A stretch of DNA of 64,000 nucleotides. Origin: Terriglobia bacterium. GTDB lineage: Bacteria; Acidobacteriota; Terriglobia; UBA7540. The notes under the pieces were generated by a model, which did not search any database, had not been told where the DNA came from, and saw nothing but the letters and a program-made list of their open reading frames with translations. The stretch is taken from the NCBI GenBank assembly GCA_035712365.1, contig DASTAW010000048.1, forward strand, positions 310,001-374,000. The letters run 5' to 3'. Below, one piece after another: positions 5,537-22,712 of the stretch (within the stretch, counting starts at the first letter, position 1; every line of letters starts with the position of its first letter). The position numbers were made by a program, and so were the translations under genes.

Positions 5537-6670
5537 ATGGATAACGGCACGGTCTATTGGGTTGGGCTCTCACAAATTGAAGGTCTGGGGGTCCGCGGTG
5601 TCCACAAGCTGGTTGCCCACTTCGGCTCTCCCAAGGCCGCGTATATGGCCTCTCTGACGGAGCTCGAGGGTTCGGGTCTTCCCGCGACCGTGTGCCATTC
5701 GGTTTTTTCTCAGGCTGGGCTGAAAGAGGCCGAAAACGAGATAGAAGCTGCCTTGAAGTCCGGTTGCCAGTTGATCGATTATGAGAGTCCGGCTTATCCT
5801 TCGTTGCTCAGGCAGATCGCCGATCCGCCGCTGGTACTTTACGTGAAGGGCGATGTCCGCGCGCTTTCCGGGCACTGTGTGGCCATCGTCGGTTCCCGGC
5901 GGCCATCCGCTTACGGATTGCAGGTTGCGCGGCGGTTGGCGCGCGACTTGGCGGAAAGGAACCTGGCAATCGTCAGCGGCCTGGCACGGGGAATTGATTC
6001 TGCTGCTCACCACGGTGCGCTTGAGGCCAAAGGGAAAACCATCGCTGTCCAGGGCAGAGGCATGGACGGGATTTATCCGGCAGAAAACAGGCGATTGGCA
6101 GACAAGATCCTGGAATTCGGGGCCGTGATTTCGGAATTTCCGCTGGGCACGGGGCCGACTCCCGAAAATTTTCCCATTCGTAACCGCGTGATCAGTGGAC
6201 TCTCACTGGGAGTCATGGTGGTCGAAGCCAGTGAATACAGCGGCTCCCTGATTACGGCGCGATTGGCGACCGAGCACAACAGGGAAGTATTCGCTGTGCC
6301 CGGCAACATCACGTCGGCGCAAAGCTTTGGTCCTAATCACCTTATCAAGCAGGGCGCCAAGCTGGTGGGCGAGTGGATGGATATTGTGGAGGAATTCCCG
6401 CCGGAGGTCCGCATGCAACTCCTGCCGTCCGACGAGGCATCGGATGATGGGCGGGACAATGCAGGATCCGGGGCGCTCTTCGAGGAGTCTTTGACGCAGG
6501 AGCAGAAGGAAGTCTTCGAGGCGCTGCGTGTGGATGAGTCGCTCTTCGTCGATTCAATCCTGGACTCGGTCCGGCTGCCTCAGGCGCAGGTCATGCAGGC
6601 CCTTCTGGAGCTGGAAATGAACGGCTTGGTCCGCCAGCTACCGGGCAAAAATTTTATTCGTAAGCTATGA
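5537..6670 (+). CDS. dprA: DNA-processing protein DprA/Smf
   Basis: A 377-residue DprA, which binds single-stranded DNA entering by natural transformation and loads RecA on it. The N-terminal helix-hairpin-helix-like part (about residues 1-90) precedes the Rossmann domain with VAIVGSRRPSAYG, SGLARGIDSAAHHGAL and SEFPLGTGPTPENFPIRNR. A C-terminal winged helix (about 315-377) completes the usual architecture. The family's usual LGCG segment reads QGRG here. The start at 5537 is supported by AGGGAG five bases upstream; a longer frame upstream lacks homology. It precedes topA, a gene pair common in several phyla. Confidence 0.95.
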   Translation: MDNGTVYWVGLSQIEGLGVRGVHKLVAHFGSPKAAYMASLTELEGSGLPATVCHSVFSQAGLKEAENEIEAALKSGCQLIDYESPAYPSLLRQIADPPLVLYVKGDVRALSGHCVAIVGSRRPSAYGLQVARRLARDLAERNLAIVSGLARGIDSAAHHGALEAKGKTIAVQGRGMDGIYPAENRRLADKILEFGAVISEFPLGTGPTPENFPIRNRVISGLSLGVMVVEASEYSGSLITARLATEHNREVFAVPGNITSAQSFGPNHLIKQGAKLVGEWMDIVEEFPPEVRMQLLPSDEASDDGRDNAGSGALFEESLTQEQKEVFEALRVDESLFVDSILDSVRLPQAQVMQALLELEMNGLVRQLPGKNFIRKL

Positions 6671-6713
6671 TGGAATGTAACAAGCTCAACTAAAGGGCAT
6701 CTAAGGAGAAGCG

Positions 6714-6738
6714 GACCGGGACAGGATTGATCCCGGTC
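6714..6738 (+). other. Hairpin between dprA and topA
   Basis: A perfect 8-base inverted repeat, GACCGGGA at 6714-6721 and TCCCGGTC at 6731-6738, with a 9-base loop. No T-tract follows, so it is not an intrinsic terminator. It ends 15 bases before the topA start and might shape topA mRNA folding or processing. Confidence 0.4.
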
Positions 6739-6753
6739 ACGGGTTGCTAAAGT

Positions 6754-9165
6754 ATGGCTAAATCATTAGTTATCGTCGAATCACCGGCTAAGGCCAAGAC
6801 GATTAACCGCTATCTGGGCGCCGGTTATACCGTCAAAGCCTCGATGGGACACGTGATGGACCTTCCCAAGAAGGAACTGGGCGTGGACCTGGAGAACAAT
6901 TTCAAGCCGAATTACGAAGTGATCCCTAGCAAGAAGGAGACCATCAAGTCTCTGAAGTCTGCAGCAAAAGATGCGGATACAATTTACCTTGCTGCCGACC
7001 CTGACCGCGAAGGCGAGGCTATCTGCGCGCATCTGCGCGAGTTGCTGGACTCCAAAAAGAGAAAATTCTATCGGGTACTTTTCAATGAGATCACCCGCGA
7101 AGCCATTCGCAAGGCTTTTGAAAATCCCCAGGAAATCGATACCCGGCTGGTTGACGCCCAGCAGGCGCGGCGCGTTCTGGACCGCCTGGTGGGCTACCAG
7201 GTAAGCCCGCTGCTGTGGGACAAGGTGAGGCGCGGGATTTCCGCCGGGCGCGTGCAGACCGTTGCCCTGCGCCTGATCGTCGAGCGTGAGCGCGAGGTTC
7301 AGGCTTTCAAAAAAGAAGAGTACTGGACGATTGGCGCCAGGCTCGAAGGCAGGAATCCACCGCCGTTTGAAGCGCGCCTGTTGAAGTTCAAGGACAAGGA
7401 ACTGGAAATTCCGGACCAGGCCGCCGCGGACAAACACCGTGCAGCGATTGAGAGCGCGACTTTTCAGGTGAGTTCCGTTGAAACGCGCGAGCGGCGCAAG
7501 TTTCCGGTGCCGCCGTTCATCACCAGCAAACTCCAACAGGAGGCCGTCCGCAAACTTCGCTTTACCGCCAAGAAAACCATGATGCTGGCCCAGAAGCTTT
7601 ATGAGGGCATCGACCTCGGCGAAGGTCCGGTGGGCCTCATCACGTACATGCGTACGGACTCGACCCGGGTTGCAGACAGCGCTCTCGAGTCCGTTCGGGC
7701 CTACGTCAAGAAGACCTATGGCGCGGAATATCTGCCGGAACAGGCCATCAGGTACAAGACCAAGAAGGGCGCCCAGGACGCGCACGAAGCAATCCGCCCC
7801 ACAGCCATGGACCGTCCGCCTGACTCGCTGCACGGGCAGCTTTCCGCCGATGAGTTGAAGCTCTACCGGCTCATCTGGCAGCGCTTTGTGGCTTCGCAGA
7901 TGAACCCCGCCGTCTTTGACCAGACCACCATTGACATTGCCGCGGGCGATTATCTGCTGCGCGCCACGGGATCAGTCGAAAAGTTCAAAGGTTTCCGCGC
8001 CGTTTACGAAGAGGGACAGGACGACAAGGCAGCCGAAGACGGCGATGAGGCGGCTTCGCGGCTTCCCGCGGTGGAGAAGGAAGAATTGTTACGCTTGCTC
8101 GGCCTGATGCCTGAACAGCACTTTACGGAACCGCCGCCGCGATACAACGAGGCGACCTTGGTGAAGGCATTGGAAGAGAAGGGCATTGGGCGCCCTTCAA
8201 CTTACGCCACCATTCTTTCGGTCATCCAGAACCGCGATTATGTCGAGAAACTCCAGGGACGGTTCCTTCCCACCGAACTCGGCATGGTGGTGAACGATTT
8301 GCTCGTCAAAAGCTTCACCGACATCTTCGACGTCGCCTACACGGCGCGCATGGAAGAAGAACTCGATGAGGTTGAGGATGGCAAACTTACCTGGACTGGA
8401 GCGCTGGCCGAGTTCTACGAGAAGTTCCGGAAGGAGCTTAAGGCTGCCGAGCGCGAAATGGTTGACCTCAAAGGCGAAGGCGTCCCCACCGACCTCCAGT
8501 GCGAACAGTGCGGCAAGCCCATGGTGATCCGCATGGGACGCAGCGGCAGATTTCTTGCCTGCACCGGCTATCCCGACTGCAAGAACACCAGCGACCTCCC
8601 GCCGGAACTGGCCGCGAAGTATGGCACGCCTTCTACTGCTCCCGAGGTCCCTGAGCAGGCCTGCGAGAAATGCGGTAAGCCGATGGCCTTGAAGCGGGGA
8701 CGCTTTGGCTACTTTATGGCCTGTACCGGCTATCCCGAATGTCGCAACACGAAGAAGATTGTGATGAAGGAAGGCGAAGCCACCGCCGTGGCCGACGTTC
8801 CGCTGGATGAAAAGTGTCCCGAGTGCGGCAATAATCTGGCAAAAAAGCACGGACGCTATGGCGAATTCATCGCCTGCAGTAACTATCCAACGTGCAAATT
8901 CGTCAAGCGGGAAACCTTGGGAATCGCCTGCCCGGAGGAAGGTTGCACCGGCGAAATCGTGGTCCGCCGCACCAAACGCCGCAAAACGTTTTACGGCTGT
9001 ACGCGCTATCCCGACTGCAAATTTACGGTGTGGGACAAGCCTGTGGCCGAACCCTGCCCCGACTGCGGCTCGCCAATCCTGCTGGAAAAGAACAATAAGA
9101 AAACCGGCGAGGTCACACGGTATTGCCGCAATGAAAACTGCAAATACGAGCGCATCGTAGAATAA
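6754..9165 (+). CDS. topA: DNA topoisomerase I
   Basis: An 803-residue type IA topoisomerase that relaxes negative supercoils. The Toprim domain opens with LVIVESPAKAKTINRYLG and contains ADPDREGEA. The active-site tyrosine lies in ITYMRTDSTR, about residue 298. From about residue 583 to the end are five Cys-based zinc-ribbon modules; the first three follow the pattern CxxCG...G.F.AC..YP.C and the last two are shorter or divergent. E. coli TopA also has C-terminal zinc modules, so five is within the family range. No good Shine-Dalgarno precedes the ATG. It follows dprA by 83 bases on the same strand. Confidence 0.97.
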   Translation: MAKSLVIVESPAKAKTINRYLGAGYTVKASMGHVMDLPKKELGVDLENNFKPNYEVIPSKKETIKSLKSAAKDADTIYLAADPDREGEAICAHLRELLDSKKRKFYRVLFNEITREAIRKAFENPQEIDTRLVDAQQARRVLDRLVGYQVSPLLWDKVRRGISAGRVQTVALRLIVEREREVQAFKKEEYWTIGARLEGRNPPPFEARLLKFKDKELEIPDQAAADKHRAAIESATFQVSSVETRERRKFPVPPFITSKLQQEAVRKLRFTAKKTMMLAQKLYEGIDLGEGPVGLITYMRTDSTRVADSALESVRAYVKKTYGAEYLPEQAIRYKTKKGAQDAHEAIRPTAMDRPPDSLHGQLSADELKLYRLIWQRFVASQMNPAVFDQTTIDIAAGDYLLRATGSVEKFKGFRAVYEEGQDDKAAEDGDEAASRLPAVEKEELLRLLGLMPEQHFTEPPPRYNEATLVKALEEKGIGRPSTYATILSVIQNRDYVEKLQGRFLPTELGMVVNDLLVKSFTDIFDVAYTARMEEELDEVEDGKLTWTGALAEFYEKFRKELKAAEREMVDLKGEGVPTDLQCEQCGKPMVIRMGRSGRFLACTGYPDCKNTSDLPPELAAKYGTPSTAPEVPEQACEKCGKPMALKRGRFGYFMACTGYPECRNTKKIVMKEGEATAVADVPLDEKCPECGNNLAKKHGRYGEFIACSNYPTCKFVKRETLGIACPEEGCTGEIVVRRTKRRKTFYGCTRYPDCKFTVWDKPVAEPCPDCGSPILLEKNNKKTGEVTRYCRNENCKYERIVE

Positions 9166-19697: not shown

Positions 19698-20441
19698 TTA
19701 TGCCTTTGCTTGCGCTTCAACGTTGCCGGCGTGCAACCCGCATTCCTTCTTCGTCTGATCTTCCCACCACCAGCGCCCTTCGCGTTCGTGTTGCCCCGGC
19801 AGCACCGCACGCGTGCAGGGCTCGCATCCAATGGAAACGAAGCCGCGTTCGTGCAGAGGGTTGAAAGGAACGTTGTTTTCGCGGATGTAATTCCAGACCT
19901 GCCTGGAACTCCAGTTGGCCAGAGGATTGAATTTGATCAGGTCGCTTTCGGGCGTGGAAAAGACGGGATCAACTTCAACCACAGCCACCTGCGCGCGCGT
20001 GGAAGGACTTTGATCGCGTCGCTGGCCGGTGACCCAGGCGTCGAGAGTTCCAAGCGCCCTCTTAAGCGGCTCAACCTTGCGGACCCCGCAGCACTCTTTG
20101 TGGCCGTCCTGGTAGAAAGAAAACAGCCCCTTCTCCTTCACCAGCTTCTCCACTGCAGCCACTTGCGGGAAGAAGATCTCGATCGGAAGGCCGTAGTGCT
20201 GGCGGACTTTGTCAATGAACTGGTAGGTCTCGGAATGAAGCCTTCCCGTATCGAGCGAAAAAACCCTGAACTTGCCGCCCACTTTTGCCGCCAGATCGAT
20301 CAGGACAACGTCTTCCGCCCCGCTGAAGCTGATCCCGATGCCGTCCGAGTAGTTTTCGAGCGCGAACTGCACGATCTCAATTGGATGCCGCTCGGCAAGT
20401 AACTTAGCAATCTCAGGAATATCTACTGTTCCAAGTTCCAT
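19698..20441 (-). CDS. cysH: Assimilatory adenylyl-sulfate (APS) reductase
   Basis: A 247-residue CysH-family reductase that reduces activated sulfate to sulfite. The PP-loop-like site reads [16 protein letters not shown]. Cys pairs [14 protein letters not shown] and [16 protein letters not shown] bind a [4Fe-4S] cluster, marking the APS-using rather than PAPS-using type. This agrees with the absence of an APS kinase gene nearby. The C-terminal catalytic Cys is in KKECGLH. It is the last gene of sat-tauE-cysH, with AAAGGAAG before the ATG, and should be controlled by the attenuator upstream of sat. Confidence 0.95.
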
Positions 20442-20499: not shown

Positions 20500-21270
20500 C
20501 TAGCCGATGAGCAAGCGCGCCCCCAGCGAAAAGTAGAGGATGCTGAACAGCCAGGTTATGTAACGTTCGGGAATGCGGCGGGTCAGCCGGCTGCCGATAA
20601 TCACCCCGGGCACTTCGCCCGCCACCAGCAGCAGGAACAGGTTGGCGTTGAAATTCCCCATCTCCCAGTGCAGCGACCCGGCCAGCGCCGTCGTGACCAG
20701 CCCGAAGAGGATGTCAGTCCCCACGAGGCTCCCAAGCGGCAACGGTACCAGCACCAGCAAGGCGATCATCAGCAAGCTTCCGCTGCCCACCGAGGTCATG
20801 GAGACCAGGAACCCGACGATCGCGCCCACCCAAGCCAGTTTGAGGCCGCCCTCTCGCCAAGTGAGGTCTGCAAGACCGGAGGAAACCACCCGCTGCTTGC
20901 CCCGCAGGAAAGGCAGGAAAAATGAGACGCCGAAAAGAGTGAGGCCCAGTAGAACCTTTAAGGCATGGTCGAGCTGGCCTTCAGACATCATGCTTTTCAG
21001 GAAGTGGATAAACAGGATGCCCCCAAGCGAAGCGGGGATGCTTCCCGCCAGCAGGTATCCTGCCATGTTCCACCGTACCTGCCCCAGCTTGCGGTGCTCG
21101 ACCACGCCCACCAGCTTGGTGAGTGCCCCGCTCATCAGGTCAGTGCCGATCACCGTCAGCGCGCTGAACGGGGTCAGGATCAATAGGAGTGGCGTCAGGA
21201 TGACGCCCGCGCCCGTGCCCGTCAGGCCGACCAGGATGCCGGTGATGAAGGCAAGAAAACTTATCAGCAC
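20500..21270 (-). CDS. TauE/SafE-family sulfite/sulfate permease-like membrane protein
   Basis: A 256-residue membrane protein of the TauE/SafE (DUF81) family with about seven or eight hydrophobic segments. The duplicated family signature shows as GILVGLTGTGAGVILTPLL near the N-terminus and GAIVGFLVSMTSVGSGSLLM in the second half. The GTG start overlaps the sat stop by 7 bases (GTGCTGA) with GGAGG upstream, so translation is coupled to sat. Placement between sat and cysH suggests transport of sulfate into the cell or export of excess sulfite. No sulfate ABC transporter is seen in the window, which favours uptake, but this is inference. Confidence 0.9.
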   Translation of the reverse strand: MLISFLAFITGILVGLTGTGAGVILTPLLLILTPFSALTVIGTDLMSGALTKLVGVVEHRKLGQVRWNMAGYLLAGSIPASLGGILFIHFLKSMMSEGQLDHALKVLLGLTLFGVSFFLPFLRGKQRVVSSGLADLTWREGGLKLAWVGAIVGFLVSMTSVGSGSLLMIALLVLVPLPLGSLVGTDILFGLVTTALAGSLHWEMGNFNANLFLLLVAGEVPGVIIGSRLTRRIPERYITWLFSILYFSLGARLLIG

Positions 21271-22433
21271 GCTGCCTCCTGCTGGAGTTGCTGGCTGAAC
21301 GCCTGGTGAAGGACCGCCGCCACTTCGGGCCGGGTAAATTCGGGCGGCAACTGTCCGCCATCCCGCAGCACAGTGCGCACCTGGGTGCCACTCAGCATCA
21401 CGCGGGACTGCTTATCGTGCCCGCAGGTCTTTTGCGAGGCCATGCCGGAGCACTCGCGGCAGTAAAAGGTGTGTTCAAAAAACAGCGGTATGATTCCCAG
21501 TTCATCCTTGCCGAACTCGCTGAAGATCTTCTGGGAGTCGTATGGGCCATAATAATTCCCGACCCCGGCGTGGTCGCGCCCCACGATGAAATGCGTGCAG
21601 CCAAAGTTCTTGCGGATGAGCGCATGGAAAATGGCTTCCCGCGGGCCGGCATAACGCATGGAAGCAGGATTCAAGGCCAGCAGCGCGCGGTCGCGCGGGT
21701 AGTAGTTCTCAAGCAGCACTTCGTAGCAGCGCAGCCGGACCTCCAGGTTGATGTCATCGGACTTGGTCTCGCCTCCAATGGGGTGCAGCAGCAACCCGTC
21801 AACAATTTCGAGAGCGGCCTTCTGGATGTACTCGTGAGCGCGGTGCACGGGATTGCGGGTCTGGAAGCCGACCACTGTGTTCCATCCGCGCTCCGAAAAA
21901 ATTCTGCGGGTATCAGCAGGACCCAACTTGTATTCTGAAAATTCTCCGTTTGGACGCCGGAAAACTTCCACTGGACCGCTGATGACCCAGTCACCCCGCG
22001 AAGCCACGTAGCGGGCGCCCGGATGGTCGCTATTGGCCGTGCGGAAGACCGCCACGGATTCCGCCTCACGGTCGTAATGAAAAATGTCCTGAATTTCAAG
22101 AATTGCGAGGAGCGTGCCGGTGTCGTCCGCCAAGGCTAGGCGCGAAGCATTCTTCAGGCTATCAGCCTTTTCCTTGTTGACGGCCAGCGTAACCGGCAGC
22201 GTCCAGGGAAGGCCGTTGGCCAGGCGCTTATCATTGATGACCCGGGTGTAATCCGCCCTTCCCATAAATCCCTCGAGCGGACTGAAGGCGCCGATGGCCA
22301 ACATCTCCAGGTCAGAAACTTCAAAGGGATTCAGTTGGATCACGGGAAGCGCCAGAGCGGCAGCCTCCAGTTCCGCTGCCTTTTCTCCGCTCATCAAACG
22401 ATTTACGAGCCGTCCTCCGTGGGGTTCGATCAT
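21264..22433 (-). CDS. sat: Sulfate adenylyltransferase (ATP sulfurylase)
   Basis: A 389-residue homomeric ATP sulfurylase that makes APS from ATP and sulfate. The nucleotide-binding motif reads GFQTRNPVHRAHEYIQ (QxRNPxHxxH), followed by GRDHAGVGNYYGPYD and the C-terminal LSGTQVRTVLRDGGQLPPEFTRPEV. A four-cysteine segment (FYCRECSGMASQKTCGHD) may bind zinc, as in prokaryotic Sat. I start at 22433 where the family sequence begins and AAGGAA precedes the ATG; the upstream 25 codons contain the terminator region. It is the first structural gene behind the cysteine leader. Confidence 0.96.
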   Translation of the reverse strand: MIEPHGGRLVNRLMSGEKAAELEAAALALPVIQLNPFEVSDLEMLAIGAFSPLEGFMGRADYTRVINDKRLANGLPWTLPVTLAVNKEKADSLKNASRLALADDTGTLLAILEIQDIFHYDREAESVAVFRTANSDHPGARYVASRGDWVISGPVEVFRRPNGEFSEYKLGPADTRRIFSERGWNTVVGFQTRNPVHRAHEYIQKAALEIVDGLLLHPIGGETKSDDINLEVRLRCYEVLLENYYPRDRALLALNPASMRYAGPREAIFHALIRKNFGCTHFIVGRDHAGVGNYYGPYDSQKIFSEFGKDELGIIPLFFEHTFYCRECSGMASQKTCGHDKQSRVMLSGTQVRTVLRDGGQLPPEFTRPEVAAVLHQAFSQQLQQEAAC

Positions 22434-22487: not shown

Positions 22488-22527
22488 AAAAACAAAAACG
22501 CCCGCCAACGTTTTCGTCAGCGGGCGT
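22488..22527 (-). terminator. Intrinsic terminator (attenuator) upstream of sat
   Basis: On the minus strand, 22527-22515 pairs with 22510-22498 to give a 13-bp stem (two G-U wobbles) closed by an AAAA loop. The run TTTTTGTTTTT (22498-22488) follows immediately. This is a canonical rho-independent terminator placed between the leader ORF and sat, so it must be bypassed for the operon to be read. Its 5' arm can alternatively pair with 22594-22583 in the leader ORF. Confidence 0.9.
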
Positions 22528-22640
22528 CCGTTTAAGAACTACTGGAAGTTCGAATTACAAGTCGTTAATTCCAGCCACACGGCGCCCACCAACGGAAGAC
22601 GTACAACAACACATACACATCCGCTGTGCGCCTGCGCCAT
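22498..22640 (-). promoter_or_regulatory. Four-segment cysteine transcription attenuator
   Basis: Four complementary segments can be read on the minus strand. Segment 1 AUGGCGC (22640-22634) pairs over 7 bp with GCGCCGU (22585-22579), overlapping segment 2. Segment 2 CGUUGGUGGGCG (22594-22583) pairs over 12 bp (three G-U) with segment 3 CGCCCGCUGACG (22526-22515). Segment 3 with the preceding A pairs with segment 4 (22510-22498) to form the terminator. A ribosome stalled at the Cys codons (22617-22603) would cover segment 1 and free segment 2 to sequester segment 3, preventing termination. This is the classic logic of amino-acid attenuation. Confidence 0.8.
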
Positions 22641-22668
22641 TAACCGGCTTGTTCATCGAGACTGCCAT
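22555..22668 (-). CDS. Cysteine-rich leader peptide of the sat operon
   Basis: A 37-codon ORF between the promoter and the sat attenuator. Residues 17-22 read MCMCCC, four Cys codons (all TGT) within five codons at 22617-22603. Cysteine is the end product of the downstream pathway, so a regulatory leader peptide is strongly suggested. The predicted 5' UTR is about 8 bases to the ATG at 22668, with no Shine-Dalgarno; an alternative ATG lies at 22656. The last Cys codon is 8 bases upstream of the antiterminator arm at 22594. Poly-Cys leader peptides before sulfur genes are known in actinobacteria; this one does not share the sequence I remember for those. Confidence 0.8.
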   Translation of the reverse strand: MAVSMNKPVNGAGAQRMCMCCCTSSVGGRRVAGINDL

Positions 22669-22683
22669 AGATGAATAAACAAG

Positions 22684-22712
22684 ATTGTAACAACCCTGCC
22701 CAGCCCTGTCAA
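22684..22712 (-). promoter_or_regulatory. Promoter of the leader-sat-tauE-cysH operon
   Basis: On the minus strand, TTGACA (22712-22707, perfect) and TACAAT (22689-22684, five of six) are spaced by 17 bases. The predicted start of transcription is near 22676, about 8 bases before the leader ATG. This is the best sigma70-type promoter seen in the window. Confidence 0.85.

Follow-up and report, generated by a model that had tools for sequence, protein, structure and literature searches.

Candidate trp-type cysteine attenuators upstream of sulfate-assimilation genes in Acidobacteriota

The closest described counterpart of the element reported here is the uORFC-8-2 motif of Rhodobacterales, in which an upstream open reading frame (uORF) with Cys codons and an intrinsic terminator were predicted ahead of cysS (PMC8632094). 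Tandem Cys codons occupy positions 14-15 of its short ORF and lie within an RNA stem; the motif also includes the terminator, and stalling for lack of Cys-tRNA was proposed as its trigger. It belongs to Alphaproteobacteria, has cysS as its single target and uses mostly UGC codons. In Mycobacterium, P. acnes and B. longum, Cys leader peptides precede cys operons, and no conserved hairpin capable of termination was found with them (PMC1262725). The poly-Cys leaderless ORFs of M. smegmatis (Canestrari et al. 2020) are described in PMC13236596 as acting by translation attenuation. The classical attenuators, such as E. coli trp and the ilvB uORFs of Corynebacterium and M. tuberculosis (PMC10272879, PMC13236596), combine a leader peptide bearing regulatory codons with alternative hairpins and an intrinsic terminator. 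For Acidobacteria, a 2010 survey found almost no predicted attenuator with an associated function (PMC2965389), and our searches of the largely open-access literature gave no closer precedent for cysteine attenuation in this phylum.

The leader described here lies just upstream of a sulfate-assimilation operon of a soil acidobacterium, within a stretch of 64,000 nucleotides that was analysed as a whole and is called the window below. Judging from its anatomy, conservation, covariation, gene context and recurrence, we consider it very probably a trp-type, ribosome-mediated transcription attenuator with charged tRNA-Cys as its signal and with sulfate reduction and cysteine supply under its control; from these features we infer that the ribosome stalls, that the RNA switches, that the start is near-leaderless and that the system responds to cysteine. 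The promoter, the leader ORF, its Cys codons and the terminator all lie where the first-pass annotation had placed them, and the features of the locus are as follows.

22684..22712, minus strand: sigma-70-type promoter, TTGACA at 22712-22707, 17-nt spacer, TACAAT at 22689-22684 (11 of 12 matches)
22555..22668, minus strand: 37-codon leader ORF, MAVSMNKPVNGAGAQRMCMCCCTSSVGGRRVAGINDL and a stop, with the Cys codons inside 22617-22603
22620..22652, minus strand: segment 1 (protector), pairing with segment 2, from the fold and from the comparison of cognate with permuted 1:2 energies
22603..22617, minus strand: regulatory codons Cys-Met-Cys-Cys-Cys (TGT ATG TGT TGT TGT)
22571..22596, minus strand: segment 2, containing the antiterminator 5' strand (22594-22579)
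22515..22531, minus strand: segment 3, the terminator 5' arm plus the flank ACGG, pairing with 22594-22579
22488..22529, minus strand: intrinsic terminator (3:4), stem GACGCCCGCTGACG-AAAA-CGTTGGCGGGCG within 22529-22496, then a T-rich tract
21264..22433, minus strand: sat, sulfate adenylyltransferase, the first controlled gene (NF003166 and TIGR00339 above cut-off; PF01747, PF14306)
20500..21270, minus strand: tauE/TSUP-family membrane transporter gene (PF01925), sharing 7 nt with the end of sat
19698..20441, minus strand: cysH, APS/PAPS reductase (TIGR02055 and NF002537 above cut-off; PF01507)

Given the overlap of sat and tauE and the gap of 58 nt that separates them from cysH, the three genes most likely form one operon. 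The gene upstream of the leader, on the same strand, encodes a HAD hydrolase, and the leader's own promoter lies between the two. The clustered codons of the leader, which precedes sulfate-assimilation genes, specify cysteine, the product with which the controlled pathway ends.

The predicted fold of the 247-nt leader has an energy of -94.3 kcal/mol, much better than that of 200 dinucleotide shuffles (z -4.54), and modelling recovered the competing helices that had been proposed. The 12-bp antiterminator of the first-pass annotation, CGTTGGTGGGCG (22594-22583) with CGCCCGCTGACG (22526-22515), three of its pairs being G-U, was confirmed, but its predicted extent is larger: the helix comprises 16 bp (22594-22579 with 22531-22515, A22527 bulged), with a duplex energy of -29.1 kcal/mol (shuffle p 0.003). 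Likewise, the 7-bp protector pairing was correct as far as it went, but it is the middle of a longer 1:2 hairpin (22652-22620 with 22596-22571) that has the Cys codons inside it. The antiterminator (2:3) and the terminator are mutually exclusive. The terminator has 15 pairs by the count of the prediction tool and is the strongest among the eight listed in a 5-kb scan; it lies between the end of the leader ORF, at 22555, and the start of sat, at 22433, its arm beginning at 22526-22529.

In the proposed mechanism, transcription would begin about 9 nt ahead of the leader start codon, leaving a near-leaderless 5' end for a ribosome to load on. If Cys-tRNA is plentiful, this ribosome would clear the Cys codons, segments 1 and 2 would pair behind it, and the terminator would form and stop transcription before sat. 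If Cys-tRNA is scarce, the ribosome would stall on the Cys codons and cover segment 1. Segment 2, which lies a few nucleotides further on, would then pair with segment 3 (16 bp in the window); the terminator would fail to form, and sat-tauE-cysH would be transcribed. By its estimated footprint, a ribosome held at the first Cys codon would not reach 22652-22636, a part of segment 1 on its 5' side, and this counts against the scheme.

The predicted transcription start is at about 22677. The start codon of the leader ORF is 15 nt past the -10 element, which gives a 5' UTR of about 9 nt without room for a Shine-Dalgarno sequence. A promoter of the same kind (TTGAC-type -35 and TAnnnT-type -10 elements, spaced 17-18 nt apart) is present in most related leaders, and in all 25 family leaders an ATG or GTG stands 11-21 nt past the -10 element. 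Their 5' UTRs would therefore measure about 5-14 nt, into which a Shine-Dalgarno sequence does not fit in most cases, and translation is probably near-leaderless. Five leaders (L114, L120, L122, L126 and L127) have an additional, earlier in-frame TTG. In all 25, the first in-frame start precedes the Cys run by 48-63 nt, and the ORF is present and open in frame, with insertions and deletions 5' of the run occurring in multiples of three.

The Cys cluster is retained in every relative that possesses the leader. Cys-rich leader peptides with a metal or redox role occur at proteobacterial copper genes, and a Cys-motif peptide of this kind, on which a metal or an oxidant instead of Cys-tRNA stalls the ribosome, could be envisaged here. 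Yet the acidobacterial peptides present a bare Cys run with variable spacing and flanks, and the genes that they precede serve sulfate assimilation. Moreover, TGT is strongly over-used, making up 212 of the 267 Cys-cluster codons, against 9 TGT to 27 TGC in 11 window genes, as is expected of a codon-level sensor. We therefore regard a metal or redox sensor as highly improbable and retain charged tRNA-Cys as the putative signal.

The closest orthologues of sat in public genomes come from acidobacterial metagenome-assembled genomes (MAGs). Nine distinct leaders, that of the window and eight others, stand before orthologous sat genes (66-100% identity) with Cys run, arms and terminator; the eight thus carry both the Cys codons and the competing arms, on whose conservation in relatives the first-pass annotation had staked its reading, and the reading survived this check. 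Two sat orthologues of the same family (L087 and L090, 70-72% identity) have no leader. In the genomes of these two, a Cys leader is found before tauE-type genes instead (L120 and L119). A pattern search of 39 family genomes gave matches in 21, compared with 4 for the reversed control, and beyond the sat loci the matches lie before tauE-cysH, cysH and sir.

Across the class, Cys-cluster short ORFs occur in 31 of 38 regions upstream of sir genes of the 494-aa type, 19 of them with a recognised terminator, and one unit precedes cysG (L144). In total, we collected 67 distinct units of Cys-cluster leader and terminator, mostly before sat, tauE, cysH, sir (sulfite reductase) and cysG, and most of them fall in one class of Acidobacteriota. 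The genome of the window itself has a second unit, before sir (L278:359-517, equivalent to G000:C20:62858-63016; leader MGKRLHSGDCMCCCTSAPACGG and a stop), whose start codon lies a few bases past a TAGAAT -10 element and which is present in both congeners (L281 and L282). No Cys leader was found in the stretches scanned around the cysS and cysK-like genes of this genome. Two further observations concern sir loci. A Cys leader with a terminator precedes a gene for a large, probably exported protein (>790 aa) at L279:2026-2220, divergent from the sir unit of that contig. Cys leaders with terminators are also found near sir in acidobacteria outside the class of the window (L245, L248, L257, L258, L262 and L267), and the leader peptide is similar in L257, L258 and L267.

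This distribution also bears on whether the leader could be a small-molecule riboswitch with its expression platform, responding for example to SAM, cysteine or a sulfur intermediate, in which the Cys codons would be incidental. A long structured leader with a terminator and an antiterminator before sulfur genes is what such an element would look like. However, the window and 20 related loci gave no Rfam match at the gathering score. The leaders have no conserved aptamer core, the conserved elements being the in-frame Cys codons and the competing arms, and there is little sequence similarity between sir and sat leaders. A riboswitch is thus extremely unlikely, and the attenuator remains the preferred reading.

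The combination of features is rare. A strict scan, defined as a Cys-cluster ORF of at most 70 aa with a terminator at 50-115 nt, matched one of 282 window pieces, namely the site itself. When run on the antisense strands of 40 regions upstream of sir, it matched nothing. Among 1426 pieces of non-acidobacterial sat loci, two matched, both beside sulfur genes in Gemmatimonadota. Outside the family, the class-wide pattern TGYTGYTGY...GGGCNTTTTT mostly matched at the rate of the reversed control, and the spread was therefore judged from the upstream regions of sir and cysH; the pattern search in 20 genomes of other phyla (6 matches, 2 in the control) was uninformative, and the strict scan of loci served better.

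The competing helices were compared with shuffled and with permuted partners. In 34 of the 67 units, the 2:3 duplex is stronger than expected from dinucleotide shuffles of segment 2 at p<0.05, and in 16 at p<0.01, where chance would give about 3 and 0.7, respectively; in many sir leaders of other families, the antiterminator stays below significance in this shuffle test. For 18 family representatives, the cognate 2:3 energy is -26.2 kcal/mol versus -21.8 kcal/mol for permuted partners (p 5e-5, not tree-corrected), and in the same number of leaders the cognate 1:2 hairpin beats permuted partners (p 5e-5, not tree-corrected). Segment 2 can also pair, through its 3' half, with the bases immediately outside the terminator stem, and this helix too favours its cognate partner (p 0.001, not tree-corrected); since the flank lies outside the stem, the antiterminator is the natural explanation. 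Within the 10-bp core, 193 cells are Watson-Crick pairs where 180 are expected (p 2e-5 by permutation, with relatedness uncorrected), with exchanges such as CCATCAGCGG/CCGCTGATGG, CCGTTAGCGG/CCGCTAACGG and CCGCTAGCGG/CCGCTAGCGG, and the terminator 3:4 keeps its pairing in 93.5% of the cells of nine leaders. The RNAalifold consensus of these nine recovered the terminator but not the complete 1:2 hairpin, probably owing to a gap in segment 2 that is misplaced in the alignment; codon-anchored and permutation tests were used in its place. The covariation check proposed by the first-pass annotation thus came out in its favour for all three pairings, and together with the conserved leaders and the sulfur-gene context, these cognate pairings support its reading of the leader as a cysteine attenuator.

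The same results can be set against translational attenuation of the mycobacterial kind, in which stalling on a poly-Cys uORF frees a downstream ribosome-binding site and the hairpin is merely structure. The leaderless poly-Cys ORFs of M. smegmatis are described in this way in PMC13236596, and the leader of the window would likewise be near-leaderless. Every sat-type leader, however, keeps a strong terminator with a U-tract, which in the window is located about 55 nt ahead of the sat start. Covariation links the competing arms to the terminator arm, and the folds reveal no pairing with the ribosome-binding site of sat. We thus find translational attenuation very unlikely and favour control at the level of transcription.

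The geometry of the leaders fits ribosome-mediated control. Among the 34 leaders whose antiterminator is significant, a median of 7 nt separates the end of the last Cys codon from the antiterminator, and 24-50 nt separate the stop codon from the terminator arm further downstream. We modelled the switch by folding at equilibrium, with the ribosome footprint masked and the terminator 3' arm not yet made. With the footprint at the first Cys codon, the antiterminator occupancy of the terminator 5' arm rises from 0.16 to 0.70 (mean of 24 sat/tauE/cysH leaders) and from 0.37 to 0.68 (15 sir/cysG leaders). With the ribosome at the stop codon, it is 0.08 in the sir/cysG set and 0.40 in the sat/tauE/cysH set; the latter value still represents much antiterminator and counts against the switch. 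The leader of the window does not switch in this model: it has 93% antiterminator even without a ribosome, and the antiterminator prevails in all states. A switch at this leader must therefore rest on the order of co-transcriptional folding, with 1:2 forming first, and here lies the weakest point of the computational argument. This equilibrium behaviour is what one would also expect of a plain promoter-proximal terminator preceded by a chance Cys-rich ORF, with no cysteine regulation. Such an arrangement would hardly recur before so many sulfur genes against a very low background rate, or have competing helices that are cognate-specific, and we give it next to no credence compared with attenuation.

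Gemmatimonadota have comparable arrangements. At their cysH loci, leaders with terminators occur in 6 of 19 cases, for example MSHRCARPFRLHTSAPQMRAAACCCMTGNHPDGTT and a stop, and units lie near cysteine or sulfate-assimilation genes at L040:2351-2700 and in L298, L302, L303, L304 and L305. In L040, a 9-bp antiterminator, GCGGCCGGT/ACCGGCCGC, precedes cysC-cysH-sat-sir. These loci suggest that Gemmatimonadota are a second phylum with such control. A possible Cys leader before a TauE/SafE-like gene of a Gemmatimonadetes MAG (L047, reverse strand, 6581-6771) is a weak case.

How do these leaders compare with the known systems? With uORFC-8-2 they share the short ORF, the tandem Cys codons within an RNA stem, the intrinsic terminator and the proposed trigger, and both systems are predictions. 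The acidobacterial leaders differ in phylum, in their longer, mostly UGU runs and in their targets: they sit before sat, tauE, cysH, sir or cysG, not cysS, and several operons per lineage have one. Like the actinobacterial Cys leaders, they have a short ORF with a Cys run before cysteine genes and a predicted leaderless or near-leaderless start, whereas their terminator and covarying antiterminator set them apart from terminator-free translation attenuation. The classical attenuators have the same general construction, but serve other amino acids, phyla and targets, and lack the very short 5' UTR without a Shine-Dalgarno sequence that the promoter match implies here. The novelty remark of the first-pass annotation has to be toned down, since a Cys uORF with an intrinsic terminator had already been predicted at Rhodobacterales cysS (PMC8632094). 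Cysteine attenuation itself is already known; the novelty is in the phylum, the targets and the scale of the regulon.

The present leaders give a set of Acidobacteria attenuators a clear putative function, with gene context, specificity and testable base pairs. With them, the predicted range of terminator-type cysteine attenuation grows from one tRNA-synthetase gene of Alphaproteobacteria to operons of sulfate assimilation. A broader proposal, which we hold tentatively and consider slightly more apt to be wrong than right, is that near-leaderless Cys attenuators are a main control of cysteine supply in Acidobacteriota, with a related or convergent form in Gemmatimonadota, and constitute a multi-operon RNA regulon (sat, tauE, cysH, sir, cysG, cysC-cysH-sat-sir) that replaces the protein cysteine regulators of model bacteria. 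The near-leaderless start, if real, would be an unusual way of coupling the first ribosome to RNA polymerase. If the attenuator reading is true, an entire pathway, the one leading from sulfate to cysteine, would be run by classical amino-acid attenuation in a phylum distant from the model organisms.
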